From the NCBI RefSeq assembly GCF_035083965.1, contig NC_089724.1, positions 15,108,910 to 15,172,909 of the forward strand: DNA of 64,000 nucleotides. Direction: 5' to 3'. Below the pieces are notes generated by a model. The model was not told the DNA's origin. It saw only the letters and a program-made list of their open reading frames with translations, and searched no databases. How positions within the stretch are numbered: the first letter of the stretch is position 1; the number at the start of each line of letters is the position of its first letter. The translations under genes and the position numbers were made by a program. Source of the stretch: Branchiostoma lanceolatum. Its lineage: Eukaryota; Chordata; Leptocardii; Amphioxiformes; Branchiostomatidae. This document shows, piece by piece, positions 21,601 through 60,000 of the stretch.

Positions 21601-24600
21601 ATCAACTGGCAACGGATGTTAGAAATGATGTTATGGCAGACATTTAGGTACAAACATTCTCCTTCCTTTTAAGTAGATTCAGCCCCTGTGTATACTTACA
21701 TCTCTACATAAAGCGGGGCCAGTTATGAGGTGTATGTGTTTTGTGTTCCAAAGGAACCATCTGCTTTGCCAACATGTCCATCGCGATGCTGGAGCCCTCC
21801 CTGCCGATCTGGATGATGGACACCATGGACGTTGGCCAATGGCAGCTTGGTACGTTACAAATTCAAATTCAAATTGCAACCGTGTCCGTCGAACTTCCGA
21901 AGATGATGTTAGTAAAATGGTTATGTTTTATTACGCGAGGGGATTGATAATTATGCTCAAAATAGTAAGTTGTTGAAACTTTCTATCTTTGTTGAGCATG
22001 GCCTCAGTGCTCTCGCGTTCGTTATTCTGAAGAAGCCTGTCATGATCAACATATTGTTTTCTTAATTGCCAGGTGTAGCGTTCCTACCTGCCAGCATCTC
22101 CTACCTGATTGGGACTGCCTTATTTGGTAACCTGGCACACAAGATGGGAAGGTCAGTGACCCACTGTTTGCTATGCTTTGTTTTGAAGGCCTCTTATTGG
22201 TGCCTGCGGAAGAGTGATGGATGCGGTGGCTATATTTTCTAACACTTAGAATTGCGCAAAACAATTACCTTTACGTACCTTTATCTTTTAGATGGCTGTG
22301 TGCCTTGTTGGGGATGCTGCTGATCGGAATCTTCTCATTTGTGGTAGGTACATCTATATTTCAGTATCCGCCCATACAGAAAAACAAAAACATAGACGTC
22401 ATAAGTCTTTAACATGAAATGGCTGAATGCATGATTCTACGTATCACGAATATCTTCACATGCATCGCAGTTTCGTACTGTCTGGGAGGCAGGTTTAGCA
22501 ACCTAAGCTTGCTTGTACATCTTACTTCATATTCTAAATGTACATGCAGGTGTAGTGGTAGAATGTCCTATTTGATAAATGGTTACGTTCCTTAATTGCA
22601 ATTGCAATGGCAAATAGCAATACCAGTGCAATACGCACATTTAAGATCTTATCTACTACGTCAATGACACGGTGTTTTCCCTTTCGTTCCAAGGTTCCTT
22701 TTGCCAGAAGTCTGTATGGACTGATTGTGCCAAACTTTTTCATCGGATTCGCAATAGGTAAGATCTTATAGTCCAGTTGTGCAACGATAGATATCATTTG
22801 ACAGAAAAGAAGGCCAATATCCCCATAATCTTTAACAGCTAACAATGCTTTAATATGTATACAAACATCTCGTTTTTGTATCTCTCACCTTAGGAATGGT
22901 GGATTCGTCAATGATGCCGATTATGGGGTACCTGGTCGACCTGAGGTTAGCTGTTCCCTTTGTCTTTATCAGTGACTATTACTCACTTCATATCGGTACA
23001 AGCAGTGGTACAGGACTGCTATATGAGGACGAACCAAGCCGATATATGTTTGTTGGACAATACAATATTTGTAACCATACCCGAAGAGGTGGGTCTAGGA
23101 CGCTGATCGATATCATCAATGGTAAAAGAGCTAGGTGGAGTTTTCCACTGATTCTTGAAAAACAAACGTTCTAAAATATCCCCAATCTTTTATACCATCA
23201 GTGCCTTCGATTCTCTTCGAGCTTCGTACTAATAATACTTATCCCTTCGGATCATGTTATAGCTGCTTTTGCGCATTATAATACCTTTGATATCTGCCAC
23301 ATATCGTAAAATATTAACTTGAAATAGGTTTTTATGTCCTAAGATGTTAAGATTGTAGATACTATTTCGCTACCAGACTGTATGTTGACCATGGCCACTG
23401 ATTTCTTTTGGAATATCTTACAGACACGTTTCGGTGTATGGGACCGTCTACGCCATTGCTGACGTCGCGTTCTGTCTGGGATTCGCCATAGGTATGGTCC
23501 TATCTTAATATGTACAGTTTATGAAATTTATGTAACTTTCCTTTCGCGATACCCATCCTTTTGGATCCAACGGGCGCTATATGTACCAGTCGCAAAACCT
23601 AGTCTCCTTTCCAGGCCTTCTAGGTGCGCCGGCACTAATTAATGGCCGTGGAAGTGCTGATTCGTGATTTTCAATTTATCGAGGCCAGCTTCTTTTGCTG
23701 GAGAGATCTTCGGGTGACAAAAACTATGTATCCAGCGAAAGAGCCTCGCCCCGATATGTTGTGCACGTGAATCAGCGCTCTCCCACAAATAAACGCCAGC
23801 ACCGCATAAAAGGCCTGTAAAGGAGTCTAGTACTTGTAGGCATCTACGCAAAAGCGTTATTCGTTTGTTTGAAATATGTTTTCCTAACATCTAAGTTCTA
23901 TTTGACATGTGTAATTCACCAGGTCCGGCGCTAAGCGGCGCTATTGTAAACGCGGTGGGCTTCCCCTGGCTGATGAGAGGCATCGCCATCGTCAACATCC
24001 TGTTCGCTCCGCTCCTCATCTTCCTCAGAAACCCGCCGGGGAAAGAAGAAACTGTGGTACGGTCGTCTCTCTCTCAAAAAAAAAAAGCAACATATAGCAA
24101 AACAAGAAATCGAAGAAGTCAGACATCGATTTGTGAAATATTCTGTATACATAGACAAAGATTTTTGTTTATTTCTTGTTTTATTCGTTATTGTGAATTT
24201 CCCACTTATTCCGTTTATGCATTTTCCTGCCTTAGATCTGGGCCAAGCCAACTTTCCCATCTTGCCAATCTCCGGGTTCACCATCTTCCGTCTCACATCC
24301 TGTCATACATGTAGTACAATACTCAAATAACTGCCTGCGGAAACACACCAAGACAAACAAACAAACAAACAAACAAACACAGAGACCGTAAACAACACCT
24401 CCGTTTTCACGGAGGTAACATAACCTGTAATATCAAAGCCATGGTCATGAGGTCCGTTTACACCATGACATACCATGCCATGTATGATTGTCCAGTGCGT
24501 ATTAAACCATAAGGGTACCGCGAAGGATGCCGACGACTATACTATACCATATTTCATCACATCACACCACACCACACCACACCACACCAGACTTATCTAT

Positions 24601-28346: not shown

Positions 28347-30403
28347 TCAAGGTGCTTTAACAACCCCTACTAGCGCAGGCCTAACCACACGGTTGTGAAG
28401 CGTGTATCCAACCTTCGACACGACCGCGACTGTGCCCGGTTCTTTCCCCTCCATGGGCGCCATGAAAAGTGCTTCATGAAAGTTCGGATCAAACTTCTCC
28501 CCGACGGGATTCAACATCTCCAGACCATTACGACTGAAAACTTTCTGCATCTGCGTCTCCGTCATTTTCAAACCTTCAAAAAGCGTCTTAAGGGTGGGAT
28601 TGTTCTTCATCTCTTCTGCGGGGACGGTCTCCGTGGCTTTCTGTAGCACGTCCGCGACCTCCAGGAGGTCCTTGCAGAAGCTCTGGATTCCATAGAGTTT
28701 GGCGTCCGCGAGCTGTTGCTTCATACGCTGTCGGACGTTCTCTGTTTCAGCAAGGGCCCTGACGTACTTGTCCTAGACAGAGAAAAAGGAGAGAAAGAAA
28801 TCTAATTATCAAAAGACACACCATAGACTAGAAGTAAACTAACAGCAATCTCAAAGCAGATGTGTGGTAGAAGATATACCATTTTCTGAAAGCTGGGTGA
28901 CAGTTGTTAGAGAAGCCCAACTTTCTGAAAGAAACTGTACAATCTTCACCTCAAGCATCACCATGGAGAGTCTATATTGTATTTACAACGCGTTAAAGTG
29001 AAATACAATATCTAGTTGACAAACATTTCATAATTAAGGTAAAGTCTGCATAGGGCAGCGCCCATCTCCGTTTCAGCAGCCCTTGGGCCTCACAACTTTG
29101 TGCAATCAGTACAGCAGGAGGCTAGTCTACTGGTAGTGGTGTGTAATGCTAAGCTGAGAAACAGAAAGCAGTATGCCACCAGAGAAACTTTGAATCCAAG
29201 CAGAGGTTGGTATCATGTTCACCTTGTATTCCTTTAGTTCTTTATCTAATTTGGCCTTTTCTTCTGTCAGCTTCTTGTCGGCTTGAGATATCTCCCCTTC
29301 TGCTGGTGTTTCTGACTTATCTGCCTCTGCATCTTCTGTCTTGGAGGTCTCTGTGGCTGTTGTAGCCAGGTATCTGGTGCTGTACCTAAGAACAAAGGTG
29401 GTCTTGTGTTAAGGGTTGTTGACTTGGAATGTCTTGTGTTAAGGGTTGTGTTAAGGTGGTCTTGTGTTAAGGGTTGTTGACTTGGAATTTAAAGGCCTTG
29501 GGTTCGACATTTTACCTTGGGAAAGACATTTTACACCTTTTTCCTCATTGAAAACTGAAAACCTAGTTTCGGTTAGGTACGTCTTCTCAGATGGGATATA
29601 AAACTGGAAATCCCATTTTGGGGGAGAGCCACACCTTGAGCAAGTTAAAGAATGCACCACACTTATTGAAGAGCATAGGGATCCATCTCGGTGTGAGTGG
29701 AACAAAACATGTTTCAGTCTGGTCTTAGTAGTGTCTTACATATAACAAAACTGGTGGGTTACTGCTAAAGGCAGTCTACCATTCATGAGTAACAAACAAA
29801 CAAACAAACAAACAAACAAACAAAACAAAACAGAACAATATGTAAATGCAGTTAGTACCAGGACGTATTACAATTGTTGTTGTTGTCCTTGTTTAACGTC
29901 TATTATATCGCTGGACGTGGTCTCTTGGTACTGGGTTTCACTTGGTTCAGTTACGAGTAGTTACACAACCCATAGTACTACTATTACACAAGCATGTTTC
30001 ACTACTAAAATTGCATCATCAAGAAACACAATGAATATAAGGCGTCAAAGATCTCTTAGTATGACAAGAAGGACAATTTTGCAACAGATTTTTGCCAAAG
30101 GGGTTGACACACGTGCTAAGAACTGCGGATTTGATAACGTGTTCCTAGAAATCTGCATCGCACATGGCAGACACATGGATGTTGGAGTGACCTCATCGCC
30201 CCCCTCCCTCTCCTCAAGCCTTGCGTTTACTGGCCCGTTTTCTTCTACTGGCGCCACAAATGATAAAAGCACGAAAGTCGAAAGTAACATAAGGACGTAA
30301 AAATTTGGTATATCCCTGCTTACCTTGGTTTTGTGCTTCTAAATAAAGCAGCAGAGGTAAAATTTGTTACGGAACGCAGCACGGTCCGACAGGGAGCTGC
30401 CAT
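28347..30403 (-). CDS. GRPEL1: Mitochondrial GrpE-like nucleotide exchange factor
   Basis: GrpE homologues release ADP from mitochondrial Hsp70 (mortalin) during matrix import and folding. Three exons on the minus strand keep frame: 30403-30324, 29385-29223 and 28772-28347, giving 222 aa, close to the usual 217 or so for GRPEL1. The N-terminus (MAAPCRTVLRSVTNF, then FRSTKPRYSTRYLATTA) is basic and Ser/Thr-rich with no acidic residue, as expected of a matrix presequence. Then come a charged coiled-coil (about 47-95, KKLTEEKAKLDKELKEYK), the four-helix dimer region (TENVRQRMKQQLADAKLYGI), and the C-terminal beta domain with the GrpE signature (FDPNFHEALF, EPGTVAVVSKVGYTLHNRVV, RPALVGVV). It is divergently paired with SIL1: start codons are 577 bp apart. 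Confidence 0.95.
29040..29195. repeat. Interspersed repeat shared with 61045-61200
   Basis: GGCAGCGCCCATCTCCGTTTC and the following 120 bases reappear with substitutions at 61045-61200 (GCGATGCCCATCTCCGTTTC). This copy sits in an intron of GRPEL1 and the other in an intron of the NHL gene. Confidence 0.55.
29395..29835 (+). mobile_element. SINE-like repeat with (ACAAA)n tail
   Basis: It starts with phrases repeated in tandem (GTCTTGTGTTAAGGGTTGTT). It contains a tRNA-like phrase (GGCCTTGGGTTCGACATTTT) and the phrases GTGTGAGTGGAACAAA and CAGTCTGGTCTTAGTAGTGT. It ends in an AAAC-rich tail at 29789-29826. Related degenerate copies occur at 31330-31560 and 42490-42710, and a reverse-oriented one at about 53640-53830. 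The tRNA relationship is inferred only. Confidence 0.5.
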
Positions 30404-30980: not shown

Positions 30981-33900
30981 ATGAACAGAATGGAGAAGGT
31001 AGCAGCTGTCCATATAGCAAGTGTTCTTGCCCTGGTCTTGTCCTCCTTACTTCTACACGGAGGAAACACTCAGGATACTGAAGGCCTTCGAAACTCCAAG
31101 CAGACGTCGGGAGGTCATAATGGCGCGTTGATGGTAGTTCCCAATGAAGAAGAACTTCAAGAAGATGATGAAGATGATAATGGTGTCGTGAGTGTTGAAT
31201 TAGACGATTATGATGATGAGAATTTGGAGGTGTTCTACCCAACTAAAGAATGGCAAAGAATCAAACCAGGTTAGTGTTATGTTTTATTATCTTTTTATTA
31301 TTGATATCATTATAATGTATTGTCCTGAGCGTCTGTTAGGGACATGCTTTTAGATGGGACGAAAAACCAGAGGTCCTGTGTTTAAGACATGCCTTGAGCA
31401 CATTAAAGATACCACAAAAAGAGAACTAGAAGGGGTCTTCATTTCAGTCTGAGTGTTGTATTTAAACCTTAATTATACAGTCTGGTCTTACGCAAGTTGT
31501 ACCTACAAAATTGGTGTGTTATGTCTGAAGTTAAGGCATTTTACCAGGAGGACAAAACAAACATAAGGCCATTATGTGGCAATGAAAACGCCTTGATTTA
31601 ACTTTAAGTTTAACAGTTAAAGTTTGTTTTTTATTCGGATCATCCCCTTTTGAAAACTTAGGACAAGCCATTCCAGCAGGACTTCACGTTTCCATTGACC
31701 TCACAACTGGAGAAAAACGGGCCAAACTCTTGGACGATGATGACCACACAAAGGAAAAAGAAGAAGACATCTCGTCCAGGTACATGAAATGGAAAGACGG
31801 GGACCGCCAAGGCATGGTCAACACCAAGAACAAGTACTTCACAGCCAGCGAGCTGAAGGATGCTCTGAAGAAGTTCAAGGCCGATCAGGATGACGTGTCA
31901 GCAGCTGGGCAACAAAAGGTACCTTTAGCTATATTCATGATCAGAACTAGAAATTATGCACCAGTCCTAACCTACATGTAAACGTTCGATAAAGTAGAAT
32001 GCCAGCTAAATCTCATTACTGTTACACGAAGTCACTACACTACAGACAAAGCATTAGTCACTATACAGACAAAGCAACAATTACAAACCTCACCACTTCA
32101 TAATTTGTACCTTAAATTCTAGATAGATACTAGTTGATTCTCAATTATTGTGCTCCCTCAGAAAATGTAACCATTCCATTCTAATGTGGCCTCTCTGGAG
32201 CTTGATCTCCAAAGCTTCAGGAGCCAATTTGATGGCAAAGTCATCCTCATCTGAGTTGCCTGTAAGCCAGAAATGTCTGACCATTTCAAAATTGTATCCA
32301 GTTGCTTGAGTACTATTTACTGTTTATGGTAGACTAATACTACAGGTACATAAAAGTAAGTATGCCTTCTTTCTTCATCTTTCATGTAGCTCAAGAATGT
32401 CAAAGACCAGTACCGCTCCTACGACGAGTTGAAGGACATTTTACAGCAGATGCACGTAGACGTAGAAACAGACACGGAGATCATGCAGAAACTACTGCTG
32501 GCATACACTGAAGAAGGGTCGTCTGGTGACATGAGGCTCCACGTGCTCACAGAGTTAGAGTATCATGTTCACCAGGTAGGCACTGGAAACTCCTAGGTGG
32601 TCTTGAATGTTTGCTAATAATATGTAAATGATTTTGACTCTGACCAATGACTGCACTGTGTACAGAGCTTTAAAGTGTGATGCTATCCTGTAATATCCAT
32701 TTGGATTGACCTGCAGTACAGTCAAAACTGCCCAAGAAGACCTATAGTAATTAGGGACTGATAAAATCTGGGCATGTGTTCAAATATTATCTTAACCCAT
32801 AAATGTGTGGATGATACTTGATAACCAGTTTGTGTTTGTGTATTGTTCTATATCAGATTGACAATGCTCAGAACCTGATTGAGCTGGGAGGTTTCCAGTT
32901 GGTGATTCTGGCCCTGAATGACAGCAACAGCGACATCCGAGCAGAGGCAGCCAGGGTACTGGGGGCAGCAGTACAGAGGTGAGCACACAAATGCTATTTT
33001 CTAAAATAGATTTAGAAAAAGTAGTTGCTAGTTAACTTGGGCAAGACAGTTGGTTAGCATATAGACTATGTGCAATTTGCCAGGATATAATTGTGTATTT
33101 ACATATAACTCAAATATTTTGTTTCTGCACATTTTTCCAGTAACCCAAAGGTACAGATCGAGGCCCTGGAATCCGGAGCTGTCCCGACTCTAATCCGATT
33201 TGTTGCCAGCGACTCGTCTACAGCCGTGAGAAAGAAGGCTCTCTACGCCCTGTCAACTCTCGTCCGACATTTTCCTCTGGCTCAACTCAGGTAGTTTTTC
33301 CATTCTTCTATTGTCTTATGTACCTATTGTCAGTAACTCAGGGCTGGAAATACTATTATGCACTTCTGTGCACCCAGAATTGGAGTTGTGCACCTAGTTG
33401 ATGACTGTGGGTGCACCAGTGCACCAAGATATATGTGTAGAGTTATATAGGTAAAGGTACTTGACATTCAATTTTCTTTTTTGTGCTTTTTTCTGTGGCT
33501 AGGTTCCTTCAGCAGGGTGGTTTGAGTTGTTTGGCCCAGCTGTTTGGAGACCCCAATGCCACGACACTCCGCATCAAAGCAGTGACCTTGCTACATGACC
33601 TGATGGTGGAACAGGTAGGTGTCATGTGACTAAAATGGTTCAAGTGCTGGTGTCACCAATGACACTAAAACACAACCCTTCCTGATTACATTCAATTAAG
33701 TATATTTTAATGAACATAGATGTCTTTACAAAATATACACCCTTCTAAAACTTTTAAAACTTGATTACCTGGTGGCAGGAATCCAGAACTGAAAGTATGA
33801 TTACCTTCGCCGGGAATGTATGCATTCGCGGTAAGGTTATGTTATCGGTTACGCCAGCTGTAAAGTGGGTCCGTATGTATGTCGAGATCATAAGTCGAGA

Positions 33901-38303: not shown

Positions 38304-41300
38304 ATGGACTACCAAAGTGAGCAGAATGATGAAAAAGGAGCTTTGCAAGCTATCTTTGAAGAAGATTTCACCGGTGAGTGTAGCAAAATAGTTGGAGCAG
38401 CTTCTGATGATGTGGACAACAACAACATTAACCCCCCTCCCCCTAAAATTTGTATATGACACGCCCACTAATTGATTAATTCTCTGAGCTGAGAAATCTA
38501 AAAATAAAGGTACTTTTATAATTTTGTATCCAGTCTTGTAAGAGAAAAGAAATACCAGTATTGAGTTTTTCTATGATTTTTTGAGAACATGAATATGGAA
38601 ATGTATTGATTACTAAACAGTAAATGTAGTTTATAATGCTTAATAATTAATGTCTTAATATTATGATATTTACACCATTCTTTCCCAACTGATAGACCTG
38701 GCTACAACGCCATGCAGTTTTATGTTAAAGCTGAAGGACATGGAAGTCCAACTTTCAGGTATTATTAATTAAAGAATGATAACCAATATACGTTATATAG
38801 TTTTAAGTTCAATATTTACATTCCTTTAAAAAGGAAACTAACTAGATATATAACATTAATGAAGGCTACATCATTGGGGCAATCTGGGGTTTGATTTTAA
38901 TATGTGATAGAATTTGTCAAGAATGCTTAAACTAAGTACCGATGAATTGTGGGTGTCAAATAATGTGCTGCTAAACAAAAAATTAAGGCAACCAATTACG
39001 CTTCGTAAAAAATATTCCGGTTCCGAATAATGGTCGCTACACCTCACAGAAAAATACATGACTACCATCATGTACAAGACTACTCACAGATTACAGTATT
39101 TACACTGAAGTGATTTTACCCCCTCTTCTTCCATTATTCTCTGTAGGTCCCTTGTATGTAAAGATAACATACAAGGAGAGATACCCAGACGAGGCCCCAG
39201 ATATAGACATCCCTCTGCGCTCTCAGGTTCTCACAACCCAGCAACATGCAGACTTGCTCAGCCATCTGAAAACAATTGTAGGTAGAGCACATATAACAAA
39301 TTTTCTACATGATTATGTTGTCAGCACTTTACTCAAAGAGCTGAGTCATCTAACATCTAACTCTGAGTCTTTATGACAATAATACGGAAGCGACTGCAAC
39401 TATATAATGTGAACTGAGCTACAAAAGATATGTTTATTGTCACACTGTTACTAGTACATAATGGCTCTGACTCTGTTTCTCTCTAATACCCAGGCAGAAG
39501 AGAGTGTTGGCATGGCCATGGTGTTTACACTAGTGGAGGCAGCCAGAGACTGGAATAACCAAAACGTGTGTCCAAACACACCCGATCAGGAAACGCCGCA
39601 GGTACAAATAATACACATTATTGTGTTGTGCACATTTGGTGGGCAGCATAATAAAACTGCAAAAACACAGACGAACAGGCAGACCAAAACCTCCCCTTGA
39701 ATAAGTAGCCTCATCCATTGACCGCATGACCTGGAATGTCTGTCTGCTGTCAGCCAAGCAAGATTGATAAATGAAGAAATCTGTTTGGCTTTTATTGTCC
39801 ATGTTACAGGACCAGACAGAAGAAAAACCAACAGACATCTCAGATATGTTGTCCTCACCGGTGGAGGTTACCGACAGTAGAAACACTGGAGGTCGCTGGA
39901 ACTTTGTGATTGGACTTGTGGTAAGGTCAATGTTAACATTCTTACCAATAAAAACAAGTGTGATATCATTCCATAATATCATTAAAGAAAAAAAAACGCC
40001 ATGAAATTCCTTACTTATAGTAGTATATTTAAGGTTCAAATCCAAACTCATGAAAGAAGACAGAAGAAATACAGCATTTTTTCCTAATTGCAGTTATCTG
40101 CAAATAAAAGAGGACTTGATAAACTTGTTGTTATATACTGGTATCACACTAACCGATGGTTACACTTACAGTGCCATAAAAAATCATTATTAAACTCTTT
40201 TTGACACATATGTGTGTGTGTTTTTTTGTTCTCTCAGGAGTTTCTTAAAAAAATATCGCAACACTTTGTTCATTGGTGCTGAATTGTCCTTGTATAATTT
40301 CTTCTCTAGGGTAAGCCATCAGCTGGGAAGTCTACCTTTTTCAATGCAGCCTTGGCCCAGAACCAGGCTAAAACTGCTGCCCATCCCTTCACTACTATAG
40401 AGCCCAACTTTGGCACTGCCTACTTCAGTGTACCGTGTCCATGTGCCAAGATGGACCATCGATGTGAAGCAGGTAATTTTTAATGATTACAAATGTATGC
40501 ACTTGTACTTTTGTGTACAGGGGAGCTAATCTCCAAGCAGATGTTGGAATGGAACATATACATGTATGTAGTTTTCTGACTGCCAGGCTTTTTTGACAGC
40601 CACCCTGTGACCCCAAGTCCAGATCTTAACACCCAACATCTAGATCTGCTTTGAGGCTGTGAGAGATTAGCCTGGCAACCAGAAAACATTGATGTTTTCC
40701 ATCCATACATCTTAATAGAAAATTTAAGATTTAAGTAATCCTGATCAGTAGTTAAATGTATTGTGAATGACTTGCATATTCTTCTGGAAATATTTTCATC
40801 TTCTTTGACAGCCTATGGCCATAACTACAAAGGTGAGAGACTGCTACCTGTGCTGCTGAAAGATGTTGCAGGGTTAGTTCCTGGGGCAGCCGATGGCAAA
40901 GGTAGAGGAAACAGGTAAAACAAAAATTGTGTACAATTTAGCACTTGGTCTTTAACAGAATACGCCAATTGTTAGGGCTATCTAGATTTGATTGGCTTAG
41001 GAAATGATGATTTTTAACTTTTTAACTAGGAAATGATTAACCAGTAAGAACAGGTGTTAATGATAAAGGCTTTGATATAGAAATTTCCATGGTTGCAGAG
41101 GTTCATGTGCTCTTCCCTTTGAGGTATGTGTATCATACTTTTTTGGACATAGAATACTCAAGTAATAGACCGAATCTGGCTGCCCATCACAATTAACAGT
41201 TCAGCCAATGATAACCTGGCAATAAGTGGTTCGACCTATGAGAGAGTGGCTACATGTCTGCCAAGTATTTGCATTTTCATTTTTTTAAGAAAGGTGGACA

Positions 41301-44300
41301 GGTATGGGATTGGTATAAAAGTATATTGTGCTGCTGTAGTTATTCAGCACCTAATCTTGTAACTTAATTAACATTCGGATTGACAATGATCCACCTCTGT
41401 CCCTTGCCAGGTTCTTGAATGACCTGTTAGATGCTGATGTGCTGATACACATCATCGATGCATCGGGACAGACGGACGAGAATGGGGAGGAAACTATAGG
41501 GTACGATCCAACTAAGGATGTCAGGTGGCTCAATATTGAAATACAGTAAGTCATGATACATTGTCAGGAATTATACAGTCACTCAAACCTGGTCTGCCAA
41601 CCGCTGTCTACTTATACCCTGTCCTTGGTGCTGAAGTGAAATCTCACAGCTTTTACCATGTTTTAAAGTGTTATTGTAGTATTTCTTTTCTCCAAATGGC
41701 ACATGCATAAATGAATGTTGATACTATATCTTCATGATGACATATATCCATTTCTATTTCTTCTCCTGCCACCATATTAATAGTAACTGTACACAGTAAT
41801 GCAATGTAGGATAAATCAAGCAACTGGATAGATGAAAGATAGTAGATGCTATCTGAAATGTCTGACTCTTGAGAGGATTTATCTAGTGGCTTGATTCATT
41901 CTGTATTGCCTGTCATCCATGTTCTACCTGGATGTCCAACCTTCATCAATGTAGCAGTAAGTGTTGATTGACACAATTATCCTATAGTCGCTGGATCTAT
42001 GACAACATTATGAACAAGTGGGAGACCATTGTGAAGAGACCTCTGAAGCTGCTGGACATGTTTTCTGGGTACCACGCCTCCAGATCTGTCATCCAAGCAG
42101 CCTTCACCGCAGCTGGCATCGATACAAGGTACAGCATTCAGCAAAAGAAGCCAGAGAGAGTAAATTTGAGATTTGTTCATATCACATTACGAAGTTTTTG
42201 CATTGATTTTGCTAGAATTGAAATGCCAACTTCTCATCCTAGCCCCTTGTATATCATCTGACCAACTTTTAGGAGTCATATTTCTACTGTCCATATCCAT
42301 CCATCCATTCATCCGTCCGTCCGTCTCATAGCTGTGCATATACATGATTATTGCTTTTACTTTTGGCAATCAGAATGGCAAGTTAATGAAGTACAACCCA
42401 GAAGGTATTACCATAAGCAAATATATATCCTTTCATCTAGCCTCATAGTTAGTCATGATAAGCTCATGTCTACACTCCTCTTTATTTAGTTTATTTGGTT
42501 AGTCTTTCAGAGTGGACTAAATGACCAACTTCCACAGCTTGAGTTTTGTCCATGGTGCTGAAGTGATAGTCCATCCGAGTGTGAGTGGATCAAACCAATA
42601 AGTATGGTCTTGTGCAGCTCAAAATACAAGACTGGGACATTATGCAATGAGGCAGATAACATGCTGTGTGCCACAAAACAAACAAACCAAACAAACAAAC
42701 AAACAAATCAAGGCACAGATTTTCTGAAGTTGTGTTTGTTCAATAGAAAGCTAGTGGAGACCCTGCCTGGATGGGACGTAGGTGTCCTCCACAAACTGGT
42801 GACTGAGTTCATCAGGATCCGTTTCCCCATGGTGCTGGGACTCAACAAGTCCGACCTGCCAGAGGCAGAGAACAACATACAGAGGTGTGTTCACTTTGAA
42901 AAATCTAAAATAAATTAGTTTTGCCCTTAGTGCTGAAGTGAAAGGCCAGGTGTTTTGTATCACACTGTGAACACTACAGTGTAAGTAGTTAAGCTAGGAG
43001 TGAATAACTCTGCCTCTACATGTCAAGATTCAAATCAATCTATTCAAGTGGTTACACACACAGAATTGTAATTTGATGACATTATTTCTAAAAGATTAAC
43101 AATTAGCCAGTTTGGAACCTGGCACTGGGGCTTGCAAAGGTTTATGGTTTGTACAAACATCAATCTATGGTTGAATAACATAATAAGAAAATGTTACGTT
43201 GTATTTTGGTGTCACTGGTGTTATTCATTTGCCCTTTTGTACATGTAGGATTGAGGAGGCCTATCCAAATGCAGCTGTCATGAGTATGAGTGCCCTGAGT
43301 GAATGTAAGCTGCAGGAGTTACAGAGGGATGGTTTCCTGCATTACTGTTATGGAGAACCCTCCTTCATGACTGACGACGAATTCCTTAGACCTCTGCCTT
43401 CCACAACAACCGGGGAACTGGACAGGATACAAAACAATGTACTTTCAAAGTACGTCAGTCACAGCAGTTAATTTTTTTCTATTTCATCTTTGATGATTTG
43501 ATGCTCAAACTATGTTCTGTTTATTCCATTTTTATCTGATTCACATGATGTTTTAGCTGGAACAAGAAATGTACAGGGCCCATGCATAATATGATATATA
43601 TACGTTTGGGTAGAGATTGCAATCTGGCAGAATCATGGTCAGAACTTTTTTTTAAACTTCAATTTATGTTAGGTCAGAGGTCAATGAATTGAATTGAAAC
43701 TCAAGGTTTATGAGTGAAAGACCTTTGTAACACATTCCTAGCATCCTGATAGGAGTCTCTGTCGACAGACAGAGACTTGAGACATTCTACTGATAGAATT
43801 GACAATTCTACCAGATTGCAACCCCTCAACATATGTGTTCCATCAGATAGGTTGAACTTCTTGGTTGCTTGTGTAACATTTCCTGAAGAAGATTGACAAT
43901 GCTGATACTGTGTTATTATTACTAGGTTTGGTTCTACCAATGTCCACAATGCCCTGAACCTTGCTGTGTCTCTCAAGTCACCCATCTTTGCCTTCCCTGT
44001 AAAAGACTTGGACACACTCATGTCACTGGACCACAGGCAGAAGGGAGAGGCACCCGGGGTGCTTAAGGTACAGACAAGGGCTTTAGACAAGGAAATCCAC
44101 ACTTAAACATCAAAGTTCTTAACCATATAGTGATGAATGGGTTCTCATTATCAGTGGCTTGTTTGTGTGTGGACCAGGGTTTGACATAGATGCTGGATTT
44201 TGATGATATTTGGTACATTTTATGTACTACTAGGTTGGTGATGCTATCCCAAAGATACTTGTCATTTGTGGGCCTCCCATGCTTTCCTCAGTACAGGAAC

Positions 44301-45175
44301 ACAAATATTTTTAAAATATATTTTCTGTTTTAGACATGTATCTGTTAGTACCAGGAAGAAGTGCTATTTTTCTGGGTCCCCAAACAGCTTGTTTGTAATG
44401 TTGACTATGCCTGATATTACTCTAACTATTCAATACATAGCACTTGAACTTCTTGTGACTCGCAATTATGCTTTGTGTCATTTTCAATGGCCAGCACTAA
44501 CTTGTATATCATTGTCACCCCCCTTCAGGACTGCATGGTCCTGAGACCAGGTACTACAGTGGGCCACCTGCACACAGTGTTGGTACATGCTCTAGAGCTT
44601 TTGAAGGGAACATTTGTCCGAGCGGAGGTATTTCTGAATAGTTTTACTACGCATACATCTACACGTTGTTGCATGTGACTTCCACATTGCTCAACCCTTG
44701 CGAAATGCTGCCCTAATGCTCAAGGTTTTGTTGTTGCTGTTGTCTGGCATTGGTGCCGTTTCCCTAGGCAGTTTCACAGTAATTATGACTGAGATCATAC
44801 TTTGCTGCAGTCTAGGAGAATGAATGATAAATGATTGTTAATGTCAGTGCAGCATTGATGCTAAATTGTCAAGGGATCTGGACTGAGGTGGCATCAATGC
44901 CAAAAATGCCAGACCAGTCCTGACCAGTTGGTATTACATATTTTACACTCATATCTTCTCAACTGTTATTTGTTTTTTTAGATATGATTGATTGCTTGAT
45001 TGATTGATTGATTGGTTGATTACCTGTGGATACTTTTTAAAGTCGTATTTCACATGTCTTCCTACAGGCAAGAGAAATCAACGGTGACAAACGTGTTGTG
45101 AGGAAGGATGAAGTCATTGGTCCATCAAACAATGTCATCAAAATTATGACATCTCCAAAATCTTCTCACTCCTAG
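38304..45175 (+). CDS. RWD domain fused to Ygr210-type Obg-family GTPase
   Basis: Fourteen exons keep frame to give 570 aa: 38304-38373, 38696-38758, 39147-39277, 39494-39601, 39810-39920, 40310-40472, 40812-40914, 41411-41545, 41988-42128, 42747-42884, 43249-43449, 43926-44067, 44529-44627, 45068-45175. Residues 1-125 form an RWD domain close to RWDD1 ([45 protein letters not shown]), then an acidic linker. Residues 155-570 are an entire Ygr210/OLA1-like GTPase: G1 GKPSAGKS (162-169), G2 HPFTT (about 186-190), G3 DVAG (233-236), G4 NKSD (375-378), G5-like MSALSE, the family block [15 protein letters not shown], and a C-terminal TGS domain ([14 protein letters not shown]). NKxD predicts GTP specificity, unlike the NMSE of OLA1. 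The substrate is unknown; a ribosome-associated role is inferred from relatives. An in-frame ATG at 39771 in intron 4 could start a GTPase-only form. Confidence 0.88.
41812..41960. repeat. Degenerate hairpin repeat (sibling of 45779-45861)
   Basis: AATCAAGCAACTGGATAG at 41814-41831 faces TATCTAGTGGCTTGATT at about 41879-41895. It is followed by TACCTGGATGTCCAACCTTC at about 41926, which also follows the 45.8-kb hairpin. A half-copy (TATCCAGTTGCTTGAGTA) occurs near 32296. Confidence 0.5.
43610..43850. repeat. Degenerate inverted repeat in GTPase intron
   Basis: AGATTGCAATCTGGCAGAAT at about 43613 faces ATTCTACCAGATTGCAACC at about 43803. A second short palindrome (GTCTCTGTCGACAGACAGAGAC) lies at about 43753-43774. 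A related phrase occurs at 18312-18372. Confidence 0.4.
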
Positions 45176-45778
45176 AATATCTTGCATATTAGCTGTACAT
45201 ACTTTTTTTTGGAATGTGCCCTATACAAAATATCATAATACACTTTTTAAAATTTTTTACGATCATGAGCAATGAAAAAAGTACATTTGACAATACTGTA
45301 TGTAGTTACATGTTTGAAGTTTGGAAAACTCAACGACTAACACAGAGGAATGACTTCATAACTTAGCTGTGTTAACCTTTGAAACAAGGGACACACAGGG
45401 TGCCTGGGTATTTCTTTTGGCCACTTATGATATGCAGTGGTGAATGAAGAGATCAAACTTATGTTGTCTTCCATAAACAAGTGCAATTTGAACACCATAG
45501 GAAATCTATTTTTAGATCAACTGATTAGACTTCTGCTCAACAGAATATTTTAGCTAAAAGCAATTAATATATTCAGAATGATTAAAAAATGTCTGATTTA
45601 GATGCCTCAAACAAGATAAGGAGGAATCCAGATATACAAATGTAAAATATTATATTTTCGTAAAATCAGCAATGATCTAAGTTGATTTTCTCCTATAATG
45701 TAAAGTTTCTGAAATATTTTTTAGTTCCATAATAGTAGTCATGACATGTACTTGACAGCTAACATAGCTATTTTATAT
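45176..45778 (+). other. 3' UTR of the RWD-GTPase gene
   Basis: AT-rich, non-coding. The first AATAAA that I noted on this strand is at 45971-45976, beyond the palindrome at 45779-45861. Confidence 0.45.
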
Positions 45779-45861
45779 GCCAAAAATAATTACTCAAGCA
45801 ACTGGATAAAGTTTTGAAAGTTTCAAAACTTTATCCAGTTGCTTGAGTAATTATTTTTGGC
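45779..45861. repeat. Perfect 41-base palindrome with 1-base loop
   Basis: Arms 45779-45819 and 45821-45861 are exact reverse complements around a single G at 45820. The arm begins GCCAAAAATAATTACTCAAG. This is a hairpin repeat, seen in decayed form elsewhere in the window. If the AATAAA at 45971 is used, the palindrome would be transcribed in the GTPase 3' UTR. Confidence 0.85.
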
Positions 45862-46429
45862 GTATCTTACTACCTGGATGTCTAACTTTCATCAACGTAT
45901 AGCTATTTTATGTTTTTAGAAAAATAGCTAAAAGACACAATTATGTTTGATAGTCATGATTATGCATGTCAATAAAACTAAATTGTGAATTATAGATAGA
46001 ACCTAATTGAAAATTCAATATAAAGGTCCTGACAAGTGCATTGATATCATAATACAAAAACAACTGGTGATCATGACTATGTAAAGTTCAAATATTCAGT
46101 GCCTTCAAGTTGTTGAACAAAAAGTATTTCAGTGTGCAATCGTTATTCAGTTCATGGAATTACAACAACATTGACAAGTTTCAATTTAGTAATGTTAAGT
46201 CATGACGTTGCAATGTTGTCATGTCAGCTGATACTTAGATATTACGTACACAATACTTTTAAGACGATAGATTTTATTGGACTGCTTTAAAGGATACTAG
46301 TACTACTCTAGTATATAAAGAGGTTTTAAATGACCTTATCTCAGTTCTCTATGTTTTTGTTGCGTAAATGGTATACCAATCCAAACCACATAACAATGGT
46401 TTCTGTATGTTACGTACGTGTACTAGCTG

Positions 46430-47363: not shown

Positions 47364-48752
47364 ATGTATTCTGGATTTCTACTGGTGAATACACTGGCTT
47401 CAGTGGTTACCAGTCTGCCAGCCCCAACAAGCCAGGATCTCGCCTACAATAGTGAGTCATCTGAATATCCGATATAGCAGTTGTATGTATACAGGTGATC
47501 TTTCCTCGAATATGCAGACAATGAGAGAAACATGTATTAATATTGTAGATACACATGACGGTTGGGGCTTATATCTGGAACAGGTTTCAAACTTTTCAAA
47601 TTATATTGTGAAAGTACAAAAACAACTGTCATTTCAACATTTTTGATGTGGTTCCATTCAATTTTACGTCGTGTGAATCGTAATGTATGCACCGCACAAA
47701 ATCAGATCTTGAAGCGTAACCTAAACCATGCATAAAGGTGCCGTTTTCTCATTCGAATGAAGGAATAGAAACGCTAGGCATATACATGCTTCAAGGTGTG
47801 CTTTTTATGCAGTGATTCATGTTCTTTATTGATTAGGTGCAAATCTGCTACACCTAATGGAGCACATCTTCTTCCACCCTGATATCTGCCAAGAGAGATC
47901 CACAGACAGCACTTACAGGTACAGGTGGGACCTGAAGGGTATCGCCCCCTCACCTTTGACCTTTGAAGCCAGGGCCAGGAATGATGTCCGCATTGGTCTG
48001 TCTGCAGAGGACCGGGATCTCGACTACATGTACGAGATCGTCATTGGAGGTGACGGCAACACCAGGTCATTCATCCGCCGAGACGTGGGCGCTAGACTGG
48101 TAGAGGTTGACACACCAGGTAAAGACAAGTCTGTGGGAAGGTCTGCTACCAGATTCCACCAGTATTTGATGTCCAAACGTAGATGATTACAAAAATTATT
48201 GCAGACTGACGTGTATTATAACGTTAAAGGCTTGCCACTGATTTTCCACAAAATTTCATTTGAAGAAGACCAATACTGGTAAAGATTCAGAAGGATAACC
48301 AACAGCCTTACCTCTATGTCAGCAAAAGTAGTTGATTACGTGACATCTTTCCTTTCTGAGGCACCATGTTAGTTTGCATTACACACTGATTCTAAATAAT
48401 CCTCAAATTTGCCCTTCTTTTGCATACTTTTGATGCAGATATTTGATGTAGTTAATGGCAGGTGATGTTCTGTGTTACAAAGATGTAATACAGAATTCTG
48501 CAACTCTGTATGTCAATGCTGTGGGACAAGAGCATTACAGTTTTCAACTTTTTGTGTGTTGTAGGGATCCTCTCTGATACCGAATTTCGCGGCTTCTGGA
48601 TTGGCGGGTCGGTAGACGGGACCATCTCAGTCGGCAAACAAGGCGAACAGACCCCCTTCATGCAGTGGACCGATCCACATCCTCTACCTGTTATCTATGT
48701 CGGCTATACTACTGCCTATGGGAGTACTGGGGACTTCAAGTTTAGCTGTTGA
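47364..48752 (+). CDS. Small secreted Methyltransf_FA (FAMeT-like) domain protein
   Basis: Three exons (47364-47451, 47837-48118, 48565-48752) keep frame to give 185 aa. The N-terminus (MYSGFLLVNTLASVVTSLPA) is a likely signal peptide. The rest is one domain of the type named farnesoic acid O-methyltransferase (Methyltransf_FA): LTFEARARNDVRIGLSAED, YEIVIGGDGNTRSFIRR, FRGFWIGGSVDGTISVGKQG and VIYVGYTTAYGSTGDFKFSC. In animals this domain is a beta-sandwich found alone or in larger extracellular proteins. Despite the name, methyltransferase activity is not established for most members, and no S-adenosylmethionine motif is visible here. The gene lies between the two halves of duplicated flank A (46570-47105 and 49120-49650) and has no counterpart in flank B. 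Confidence 0.85.
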
Positions 48753-53936: not shown

Positions 53937-55721
53937 GCACGGACGCCGTTGAGGGTGAGCTGACTTGGCGGAACGACAATCGCTGCGGCTGGGGCTTCCC
54001 TGCCGAGGGTGCCGAGGAAGCCGAGTGCAATCCGAACGGAGTCTTCGCCTGCTGCTCGCCGTACGGTTGGTGTGGCGTCGCGCCTGAATACTGCGACTGC
54101 CCCGGCTGCATCGACTACGGCCATTACGGAGGTACTTTTATCATCAATCTTTTAACATAACGAAATTTATATGATAAAGCTATTTTGTTTTTCGAACATC
54201 AACAGGGAAGAATAGAATCATTAATTGCATTCTATAAAATACAATGTTTCTTTATTACTGTTTGCATGGAGACCAAACATTATGTTTATCAGGCGTCAGG
54301 CTAACGACTTTACTCATACCTGCAACAAATAAACAAACAAATGCAAACAAAAACAGAAAGGCAGATGGAATGTACATAGCTTCAGATTATAAATGTCAAA
54401 TGATACAATACGCATACCGTAGTTCACACACGCTTGTATCTTCTTAGAGTTCCAAATGTTTGTTTTTCCGGACATAACTACATTTATTTCTAAAAGCATT
54501 CTTTACTGTCTGTCAGTACGCAATCTTGGATGTTACACGGACAGTAAGGAGCGCATGATGTCCCATGGTCCAGAGATCTTCCGCAACACTCTCACCAACG
54601 ACATCTGTCTCGACTATTGCCGGGAGATGGGCTATGCTTACGCTGGTGAGTGGCAAATGTTGTTCTTACTTATTAGAATCCGAAATGACTTAAGCCTTTT
54701 TGAAAACGATGGTTCATAAAAATGTATAGTTCATAGAATGTATGATTTATTTAAAAAAATGTATATTTCGTAACTGTGGATGTATAGTTGGTATCTGCAC
54801 GAAGAATTCAAGAATTCCTAAGAACTAAGTGTGGAGGTATTCTTCAATATTTAGCGAAAGGTACGAGGGACGCATCACGGGTACATTGTTTTGATTTCTC
54901 ATTCAGCATTTATAATGCCTTCAACTCCATGCATATATTTTTCAAGATAGTGAAAGAACTCTCCGAGTTGAGTTTAAACTTATAGTCTTTTTGTTTCTTT
55001 TAGTTGCTTGCATTGTTTTGAAAATAAGTGCTCGTAGAAGCAGTATATCTTTTCATTACCTAATTTCTATTTGTATCACAGGCACGGAGTATTATGAAGA
55101 ATGTTTCTGCGGTACCGAGGAAGACTTCGCCCGCAACCTGGAGGGGAAAGAGATCCTGTATGAGTCATGTGACACACCGTGTGTGGGTGACGACCCGTCA
55201 ATCACCACCATGTGTGGGGGCGCCTGGAAACTCTCCGTCTTTAAAGGTAATTTTCAGTTGCATAAATAATAATTAAGCAAATGGTTGATGCTTGGACGGT
55301 CGGTCGGTCGGTCGGTCTGTTTCTTTGTTTCTTTGTTTGTTTGTAAGTATGTGAATGTGAAGTCTCTTGCTCGATTTTATATTGTACCTATCAATACAAT
55401 CAGTGCGTTTTTAATCCTTAAAACTTGTCAGATCTTCCGCTGTGCCGGTTTGAGAGAACTTTCTACATGCAAAAATACTGGAGAATCTTGATTAACAATT
55501 GTAGTTATATAGGTGAATTGATTGAATATATAAACGTCAGACAAGTTTAATAGTACGAATTCCAAAAGGATAACTGGGCTCCTATCACTGATTTTTATTA
55601 TCACTTTATATTGTGCCATATATACAGATAATACCATATCATACGTTGATGTTTACAAAACAAAAACAACCCCACATATATTGTTAAAATGTCTTTCTTT
55701 ACAGTCGGCTCTGCCAAGTGA
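53937..55721 (+). CDS. Hevein-like plus WSC domain module (5' end not in place)
   Basis: Four exons all entered in phase 1 (53937-54131, 54517-54645, 55082-55246, 55705-55721) give about 168 aa. The first carries an eight-cysteine hevein-like domain with the full Y/W/Y aromatic set (RCGWGFP, ACCSPYGWCGVAPEYC, DCPGCIDY). The next two encode a WSC domain (LGCYTDSKERMM, DICLDYCREMGY, YYEECFCGTEEDF, CDTPCVGDD, CGGAWKLSVF). The last adds VGSAK and the stop. No start codon or signal peptide exon is visible just upstream. The signal exon of gene 2 (52820-53036) joins in frame to 53937 and would give a 240-aa secreted protein. Alternatively the true first exon was lost. WSC domains bind carbohydrates, so this would be a two-lectin protein. 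Confidence 0.75.
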
Positions 55722-56936: not shown

Positions 56937-57058
56937 TTGTAGACCTGTGCTTGGCGCAGGGAGGGGGGATTAACAGAAACAATCCTATTCATTATGCGCT
57001 GGGGAAAAGACTAGACTGTCGCACATTTCTGAAGCGTTGCTACGATGATACCGTCTGA
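56937..57058 (+). other. Possible terminal exon opposite the NHL gene
   Basis: A strong pyrimidine tract and acceptor (CCCTCTTTTTTTTAG) precede 40 open codons in phase 1 (SGFVDLCLAQGGGINRNNPI, then YALGKRLDCRTFLKRCYD), ending at TGA 57056-57058. It would overlap the last codons of the minus-strand NHL gene. I see no upstream exon that clearly joins it, so it may be chance. Confidence 0.2.
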
Positions 57059-60000
57059 CGCGGAAAAATGGTGATAATGTCTCGCTCCAAATGGGTAACC
57101 ACCAACTGTCCATCCGGTCCTATAGCAATGCCGTTCGGGGGCTTCGTACGAGCGACAGTGCGGACAAACTCCCCACGGCTTGTGAACATGTCCACTCTGT
57201 TCTTATCCAAGTTCGCCACGATGATGTTCCCCAAGCTATCCGTGCAAATACCTTGGGGGTAATTCCCTTTACCTGTACCAATCCTGAACCTTACCACCCT
57301 ATGTCCCTCCCGATTGTACACCTGTACAAATCTCCTGGTCTCTGCCGAAACAATGACGTGTCCTTCATTACCTGATGTGACGTAATGTCCCAACAATTTA
57401 GGTGAGCCGGGTCTTTCATATACTTGAATCAACGAGCCGTTTGACATGAAGATGTGAATATTGACAAAAATCGCAATGATTCTGTCATTGGGGTCGTCCA
57501 CAGCGATGCCTGCGTGAACACCGACGAGTCCAACAGTGGATGTACGTGGTAGGCGGAATGTGGTTTTCCCTAAACCTTCTCGACTATACTTAACCACGTG
57601 TGCAGTCATAGCACATTTAGAAGACGCTTCAGTGATACCCGCGACCCACAAATAACCCTTTCTGTCAATGGCAACATCTGAAGGATACATAGATTGTCCA
57701 TTTGTGCCAGGCACCACTGTCTTGAAGAGGCGGAGGAAGACGCCCCTCATGCTGAAGACTTGGACCCGATCATTACCTCTATCAGCCACATATATCTCAT
57801 TATCACTGGATACGGCCACTCCGTTTGGAGTATTGAATCTTCCGGGACTTGATCCCTTCCCCCCACCAATGATTATCTTTTCCGACTTGAAAATTTCGGT
57901 GTAGCTTTCTGTAATCAGAAATTAGAGTAAATCATGTAAATAGTGAAGCACTGATGGGGCTCACTTTAACTAAAGGGGAACACATCAACTCCAGAAGCAA
58001 GTCTTTTTAATTAAAGAAAAATGATTGTATTAGCAATTTAGCACCACGATTGGACTAGGTAGCAATAATATTGTTGTATTATCTACCAACAATTTTCAAA
58101 CCCCCAGAATGGTTAAAATACATCCATTATTTTCTATTCTCATGAAATTTGGGGTGATGTGAAAGAAATATTGCGTGATTTTGTGAGTAATGTTTGTATT
58201 ATGGTCGTAAATAATAGCCACTGAATGCTCCTCTTGTAAATGATAGCCACTGAATGCTCCTCTTGCTTTGATGAGCCAAACTTTAACATGGATCTTTAAC
58301 AATTATCCCATTGGAACCCGTGCCAAGAAATGTCTGCATCATCATAATCACCATGAGGCACTATTCAGTTATAGGATTATGATAGAAAGAAACAAAAATA
58401 AAGGTAATTCGCGTATACTTTAGGCACCATCCTACTTATTTGTAATGACCCAGGATCCTGAAATAAACATTTTTGGTCAAAAACTCTCAAAGAAGACATT
58501 TTTTTAAGGAGTGCATCACAGTAACATTGAAAATAACCATACATTTATGTCGAAGGCACTGTCATACCAGATCTCAAGTCATTATTTTTCGGCTGAAAAT
58601 AGCAAAAACATATAAACACGTCATATCGAAAGCCTGTTTCCCAAAAATAATATACTGGTCCCTGCATATATGCACGAGGAATGCCCATACCAAATTTCCG
58701 GTGATTTTGGTTTTCAATAGTCATGATTGAAGATTAACATGTCTTAAACTAATGACGCTAAAGATGACGCACCTTTTTCGGGGGATGATGTCGGTGCAAC
58801 AACACTTCTTGCGCTCACTTTCGATGTACGTTTGGTCGTATAAAAAAACATCGTCGTTTGGTGGGCGGTCAGTTTTGATGGTGCCGACTTAGAATCTGGG
58901 GTTCGCATTGGTGTAGAGACAGAGCTGTTGAAGGTTGATGGCAGTGTGACATCTCGTGAGCTGTTTGACGTTGGTTCCCCATTCCTGACAAAGCGATCGG
59001 TGGTCCCTACCTGCCATGGAATATCAAATGAGTTCCTGTTATTGCCTTGATATTGAGAGTCCTCACACACTTTCCATATCAATGAAGCGGGCAGATATTG
59101 ACCGCCATGTTGGGGAATTACATTTTAATGGACTCTGCTGCGCCCCCGAATTTGAGAATTGACAAGTGACAAGACCGGTATGCATAAACAATTACAACAA
59201 ACAATAAACAACTAAAGAACTTCTGGAAGTTATTAACATCACTACTGTCTAATTGTGTGCAACATCATCTAAGCTAGCTTCAAGCCAAACTCATGCCAAT
59301 CAGTCCATGCCATCTCGAGTTATGCATATATGCCGAATCAAACCTTCCGACAAAACGCCCTTACGCCGCTAAAAAAAAAAACTGTTAGGGACCCAAACTT
59401 CTGTCACTTCTTCGTCAACCTAAGATCTATTTTGATGACTGCACCATCTTCAAACCAAAGTTACAAAAATGGGGTTATTTCCGCTGCAGTACCATAACAA
59501 GCCGCAAGGGAGACCGAAATCGTATCATTTCAACAAGACCTGCCCACATACCAAATATCCACCCAGACATTATCGAGCTATCGTGTTCACAGACGAACAG
59601 GTTACCAGAATGGTAGGGAAAGCTAACGGACGCCTGTTCTTCTTGCGGAAACTTAAACATTTCAACCTTCCCACCGAAGACCTTGTCACCATATTTACAT
59701 CCTTTGTACGACCACTACTGGAATACTGCGCGCCAGTCTGGCATCCGGGGCTCACCTGCGCACAGTCAGACAAGCTCGAAGCAGTTCAAAGGAGAGAAGT
59801 TCGGACAATACTCGGAAGGCGGTTTACCAGCTATGAACAAGCCAGGAAAGACTTAAACCTTCCATTGCTCTCAGACCGCAGGCAGAAACTGTGTCTGAAG
59901 TTCGAAACTCAGTTAGAAGCACATAGTTCGTCAATGCTGCCACCAAAGGGATCGGACTGTCACGATAGATCCACTAGAAACAGCGACAAATATCGACCTA

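Follow-up and report, generated by a model that had tools for sequence, protein, structure and literature searches.

Among the closest described systems to the gene reported here are the pairs Rbg2-Gir2 and DRG2-RWDD1 (RWDD1 being DFRP2), which combine an RWD recruiter with an Obg-family GTPase carrying a TGS domain (PMC8629797, PMC8040806). In both, recruiter and GTPase are two proteins linked via the DFRP domain, and the GTPase belongs to a subfamily other than the one considered here; the G domain of DRG is also interrupted by an S5D2L domain, a difference from the Ygr210 type. The RWD domain of yeast Gir2 is necessary and sufficient to bind Gcn1, in a disome with Gcn1 bound, density located in the A-site region has been assigned to Rbg2-Gir2, and the TGS domain of Rbg2 contacts the 40S subunit (PMC8040806). 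Here, we describe a gene of the amphioxus Branchiostoma lanceolatum, located at 38304..45175 on the forward strand of a 64,000-nucleotide stretch of contig NC_089724.1 (15,108,910 to 15,172,909; the whole stretch is called the window), in which an RWD domain and a GTPase supported as a Ygr210 member are encoded in one reading frame.

Gene structure and domain content

The 14 exons of the RWD-Ygr210 gene splice into a single 1713-nt frame, encoding 570 residues and ending in a TAG stop codon at 45173-45175, as had been predicted for this locus from its letters. Exon boundaries were placed from GT-AG sites and frame continuity; all 13 introns are bounded by GT-AG, no internal stop occurs, and an in-frame TAA lies 5' of the first ATG. 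Two splice variants were compared at the end of exon 3, and only that ending at 39277 is open along its whole length. A pseudogene was ruled out, with 570 codons free of stops. The coding region is arranged as RWD, linker, G domain, YGR210-like_G4 region and divergent TGS-like domain, an order that, like the frame, can be read directly from the sequence.

Exons 1-4 (38304-38373, 38696-38758, 39147-39277, and 39494-39601) encode the RWD domain, matched by Pfam PF05773 at residues 6-108 (64.5 bits, E 1.2e-17, cut-off 22.8) and containing the YPxxxP motif with Y57. When ranked against solved structures, RWD proteins without a structure being outside the comparison, the domain scored 57.2 bits with RWDD1 (PDB 2ebm) and 26.9 bits with the best GCN2 chain. 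Identity to RWDD1 was 42%, and the RWDD1-like character claimed in the original prediction is borne out. No DFRP family was found among the Pfam matches of residues 1-152 or of the whole protein. The last RWD exon runs to a donor site, not to a stop, and leads into a linker of about 42 residues, nine of them acidic and two basic. Exon 5 (39810..39920) encodes both the remainder of this acidic linker and the start of the G domain, which, like the donor site and the continuous frame, speaks for a real fusion.

Exons 6-8 (40310-40472, 40812-40914, and 41411-41545) contain the G1 motif GKPSAGKS (residue 162), a cysteine-bearing insert (C204, C206, C213) and the G3 motif DVAG (residue 233), with an MMR_HSR1 match at residues 158-278 (56.3 bits, E 4e-15, above the curated cut-off). 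Exons 9-11 (41988-42128, 42747-42884, and 43249-43449) encode what we take, from the GTPase family, to be a helical insert in the G domain, followed by the YGR210-like_G4 region with NKSD at residue 375; NKxD is a GTP-type motif. The corresponding Pfam match (PF08438, residues 374-482, 78.5 bits, E 6.4e-22, cut-off 24.7) extends into exon 12. The RWD, MMR_HSR1 and YGR210-like_G4 matches are all far above chance level, and an RWD domain followed by a complete Obg-family GTPase with G1, DVAG and NKSD motifs, as originally proposed, is what the Pfam matches and motif positions show.

Exons 12-14 (43926-44067, 44529-44627, and 45068-45175) encode the end of PF08438 and the TGS-like C-terminal domain, which is covered by the NCBIfam NF007171 match and by an archaeal C-terminal profile. 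A TGS domain had been claimed outright; a weak, collinear profile match speaks for this claim and Pfam does not. Neither the whole protein (E up to 1) nor its last 95 residues (E up to 10) gave a Pfam TGS match, whereas a Thermococcus member of the Ygr210 family has a Pfam TGS of 47.3 bits. The archaeal-type profile aligned weakly with residues 499-563, scoring 14.2 bits when the stretch was taken by itself and 9.3 bits within the full-length protein, against a maximum of 4.0 bits among 200 shuffles of the stretch, which runs collinear with the C-terminal part of the archaeal relatives. Columns and profiles were compared with 77 of the 80 archaeal-type loci described below (L005, L014, and L024 fell outside the length filter). 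Of 75 columns conserved at ≥90% in these rows, the amphioxus protein retains 61, and half of the 14 changed columns lie at or beyond residue 495. We read this region as probably a true but divergent TGS domain.

The insert before G3 (residues 204-220, encoded within 40310-40914) has counterparts with Cys at matching positions in 41 to 68 of the 77 archaeal-type rows. The amphioxus protein has Cys at three of the four family positions and Asn at the other, so that the insert may possibly be a former metal site. Outside the coding region, 600 bases past the stop codon, a 91-base near-perfect palindrome (45775-45865) consists of two 45-nt arms, 98% complementary, around a 1-nt loop. Because related sequence occurs in intron 8 (41817-41949) and at 32293, it is likely a miniature inverted-repeat transposable element (MITE)-like element.

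Subfamily of the GTPase

Residues 157-563 are supported as a Ygr210-subfamily GTPase within the Obg superfamily, in agreement with the original prediction; this membership rests on profiles and PF08438, the tree alone being no proof. The best NCBIfam match was NF007171 (PRK09602, "YchF-related putative GTPase"), with 281.7 bits across residues 157-563, followed by ObgE (76 bits) and TIGR00092 (YchF, 71.5 bits). The score is below the curated cut-off of 387, which was not taken as defining because NCBIfam names prokaryotic proteins and the query is eukaryotic. The best solved relative was PDB 1wxq (174.9 bits, 37% identity across 330 aligned residues), which we take to be a Pyrococcus horikoshii protein, with YchF and OLA1 next at no more than 65.4 bits. 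The Ygr210/archaeal PRK09602 GTPases, including 1wxq and yeast YGR210C, share with the amphioxus protein the G domain, PF08438, NKxD and the position of the presumed TGS, but in the archaeal-type members G1 is not preceded by an RWD.

Size-matched profiles gave the same ranking. Five-row profiles scored the amphioxus protein at 264.7-295.6 bits for Ygr210 (20 random draws of five from 40 archaeal-type rows), 78.4 bits for YchF/OLA1 and 45.7 bits for DRG. A 40-row Ygr210 profile gave it 311.2 bits, against 112-127 for YchF/OLA1 rows and 39-108 for DRG rows; sampled archaeal-type rows, as a control, reached ∼75-117 bits on the YchF/OLA1 profile. Among 14 control genomes, PF08438 was present in all four archaea and in none of the ten others, and it was found in each of the six genomes reached via archaeal-type loci.

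Membership of YchF/OLA1 was rejected: besides the low profile score, G4 reads NKSD and PF06071 was not reported, although E. coli YchF gives it 133.8 bits. YchF and OLA1, the next closest solved relatives, differ in having a G4 sequence of their own and the PF06071 C terminus; E. coli YchF is named as ribosome-binding in the PDB. DRG membership was likewise rejected, on the DRG profile score and since PF16897 (MMR_HSR1_Xtn, presumably the DRG-type extension) was not found in the full-length sequence at E up to 1.

A tree of 52 rows, which included 40 of the 80 archaeal-type loci and the paralogue L083, with overlong starts trimmed in L014, L024, and L030, placed the amphioxus protein on the Ygr210 side of a branch with 98/98 support, on a long branch of its own (2.11). 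None of the arrangements submitted to approximately unbiased (AU) tests was rejected: the query with YchF/OLA1 (p 0.093), with DRG (p 0.069), or apart from the archaeal-type rows grouped without it (p 0.112). The query with the Asgard group (p 0.136) was not rejected either, nor were its alternatives, and an Asgard origin is undecided by the tree, in which the bootstrap had not converged (0.989) and YchF and DRG, both on long branches, join each other. In the phylogeny set against Ygr210, YchF/OLA1 and DRG, the Ygr210 side of the branch is thus obtained, but placements with YchF/OLA1 and DRG are unrejected.

Distribution and origin of the fusion

The RWD-Ygr210 fusion is confirmed as an observation, but the suggestion that it was undescribed did not survive. 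A supporting-information legend of 2025 (PMC12711092) prints, for the Chlamydomonas gene Cre12.g538200, the domains MMR_HSR1 // FSH1 // RWD // YGR210-like_G4, of which RWD, MMR_HSR1 and YGR210-like_G4 are shared with the amphioxus gene within one gene, and calls it "conserved in algae and invertebrates". In the open-licence PMC literature, RWD domain and MMR_HSR1 were found together only in PMC12711092, which was also the only paper found with Cre12.g538200; PF08438 was not found in this literature. Searches of RWD with TGS, YchF or Obg-like ATPase brought up papers on DRG, Gcn1 and the ubiquitin fold and two unrelated ones; an RWD-GTPase fusion is not named in the relevant parts of the ubiquitin-fold paper (PMC1779556). 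Among the titles listed by wider searches, none concerned such a fusion. No functional account of the fusion was found in the portions of this literature covered.

A table of six organisms lists Ygr210 in Saccharomyces cerevisiae only, with no entry for human, Arabidopsis, rice, E. coli or the red alga C. merolae (PMC4263083). This fits the earlier statement that Ygr210 is found in fungi and has no known human member. The RWD-Ygr210 arrangement is probably an old eukaryotic architecture, and we infer that fungi and vertebrates either lost it or never had the two parts fused; loss in vertebrates is plausible.

A scan of genome contigs showed that at least 549 of 587 candidate stretches encode a relative, and the best 80 loci were kept as archaeal-type. 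By title, 78 are archaeal, while L021 and L022 are bacterial, group with archaeal rows and are probably mis-binned. All 80 loci match the GTPase, and NKxD or NRxD was seen in 69, the simple pattern used having missed the other 11. In 70 loci, an in-frame ATG is located 5-11 residues ahead of G1; eight have none by pattern, and two only a distant one. The open stretch 5' of the first strand of the G domain is shorter than 90 residues in 79 of the 80, and an RWD needs ∼103. L037 has 257 open residues before its G domain, in which Pfam RWD was not found, as in four shorter stretches. An RWD precedes the GTPase in none of the 80 loci, and of six archaeal genomes only that of the Helarchaeon behind L031 contains RWD, in other proteins; for these reasons, the fusion probably arose in eukaryotes. 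When viral contigs were scanned, neither the query-1wxq alignment nor the whole protein nor the RWD found a relative.

Two proteins of Helarchaeota (Asgard), at L103 (G010:C22:7154-7396) and L104, have an RWD match above cut-off. That at L103, of 390 residues, in addition matches ubiquitin-conjugating, RH_dom and BRE families weakly, none of them reaching its cut-off, and may be an archaeal multi-domain E2-fold protein. The Nitrososphaera genome of L048 has two PF08438 matches, one of which, L083 (G005:C6:146283-146609), reads DLPG where the family has DVAG. The commonest neighbour of the archaeal GTPase gene is one small-gene family at 13 of the 80 loci (L008, L016, L017, L019, L023, L024, L031, L034, L041, L044, and three others), its member at L019 being DUF2095. 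The remaining neighbour families occur at 10 loci or fewer each; by inspection, one at six loci resembles ribosomal protein L15e and another at eight resembles Kae1. The gene neighbourhood of the 80 loci gave no consistent clue to function.

Elsewhere in the window, a GrpE exon was matched on the reverse strand (28347-28772, 149 bits), together with an MFS match below cut-off (23895-24314), a Methyltransf_FA match (47833-48186), a WSC match just at cut-off (54916-55269), and NHL repeats on the reverse strand (57040-57921). Such spliced genes and pieces point to an animal.

A possible role with GCN1 and its alternatives

By comparison with the systems above, the protein could be a single-chain GTPase whose RWD recruits the Ygr210 GTPase to GCN1 at stalled ribosomes in a Gir2-Rbg2-like manner, a reading that in our judgment stands at about even weight for and against. 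Where ribosomes stall or collide, the RWD would dock on GCN1, the tethered GTPase, presumably using GTP, would act in the region of the A-site factors as yeast Gir2 with Rbg2 does, and the bound RWD would exclude GCN2 and other RWD proteins from GCN1. The protein would in this way act in the manner of Gir2-Rbg2, but with a different GTPase as its base and with recruiter and GTPase united in a single chain. The idea that one chain does what DRG2 and RWDD1 do as a pair holds as an analogy only, the amphioxus protein scoring far lower with DRG than with Ygr210 (45.7 vs. 265-296 bits). Because the DRG-specific PF16897 and the DFRP region were not found, it is to be compared to DRG2-RWDD1 as an analogue, not as a fused DRG2-RWDD1.

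Two residues bear on GCN1 binding. Replacing Y74 of yeast Gcn2 with Ala abolishes Gcn1 binding (PMC8040806), and D37 of GCN2 is predicted by docking to contact GCN1 (PMC10931611). Y74 falls on the Tyr in YPxxxP, and its counterpart, Y57, is kept in the amphioxus RWD; D37 (Asp 38 in chain 8t7t, 37 in the paper) corresponds to D21. Both residues appear permissive for GCN1 binding and are no proof of it.

Several points weigh against recruitment to GCN1 at the ribosome. The YPxxxP motif is common to RWD domains, its Tyr is present in RWDD1 as well as GCN2, and RWDD1, a reported binder, has Ser at the position of D21, so that neither Y57 nor D21 discriminates GCN1 binders. The TGS domain, by which Rbg2 touches the 40S subunit, is divergent in the amphioxus protein. 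Deletion of GIR2 left GCN4 expression unaltered, which counts against a general role (PMC8040806). Passages of the Ygr210 literature, which treat a regulatory upstream open reading frame (uORF) of YGR210C (PMC5793785) or place Ygr210 in subfamily lists (PMC8629797, PMC3510508), contain no ribosome function or molecular role for Ygr210 proteins. Cre12.g538200, compared by its domain listing alone, additionally has an FSH1 serine hydrolase domain. It is deleted, along with CDKL5 and another gene, in the Chlamydomonas strain lf5-2, which is viable (PMC12711092); the gene is therefore not essential in Chlamydomonas.

The fusion could also be real with its RWD bound to another partner, the protein acting away from stalled ribosomes. 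RWD domains do serve other complexes, one paper dealing with a kinetochore RWD (PMC5709738), and the residues examined do not tell GCN1 binders apart. The closest solved RWD domains, however, are those of RWDD1 and then GCN2, both of which are reported to bind GCN1 (PMC10931611), and a link to ribosomes is described for several Obg-family members (PMC8629797); we consider such a partner unlikely, if credible. We hold it decidedly improbable that the protein is a ribosome-bound GTPase of the YchF/OLA1 type on which the RWD is a mere regulatory or stabilising cap, outside the GCN1-GCN2 pathway. YchF and OLA1 follow 1wxq as the best solved relatives, and the lack of an RWD before the GTPase in all 80 archaeal-type loci implies a core function independent of RWD, but NKSD differs from the E. 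coli YchF sequence, PF06071 is present in that protein and was not reported here, and the retention of an RWDD1-like RWD would be left unexplained.

Very little speaks for two adjacent genes, in which the RWD protein would be complete with exon 4 and the Ygr210 GTPase would begin at ATG 39771: intron 4 (39602..39809), the junction crucial to that view, does contain AATAAA at 39650 and the in-frame ATG immediately 3' of a stop, and exon 4 read through stops 32 residues on, but AATAAA is common (36 copies, or 0.56 per kb, on the forward strand of the window) and is present in introns 1, 5, and 10 of the same gene as well, the ATG lies 39 bases before the acceptor and gives 50 residues before G1 rather than the 5-11 of most archaeal-type loci, the RWD protein would be without a DFRP region, the Chlamydomonas gene is listed with both domains, and an old eukaryotic architecture also counts against it.

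If the RWD does recruit the GTPase to GCN1, we would tentatively suggest, at rather less than even confidence, an old eukaryotic system of algae and invertebrates, absent from vertebrates, in which a Ygr210 GTPase gained a GCN1-docking RWD. It would form a third A-site pathway beside Rbg1-Tma46 and Rbg2-Gir2, setting the threshold of GCN2 activation within one polypeptide. Because the RWD of Gir2 serves to bring a GTPase of the Obg family to Gcn1 on stalled ribosomes, the finding of Ygr210 naturally fused to an RWDD1-like RWD gives a strong clue to the function of this subfamily, and the question is testable in a model organism, Chlamydomonas being listed with such a gene. If the suggestion is true, the ribosome-collision response of invertebrates and algae would have a component that is absent from vertebrates.

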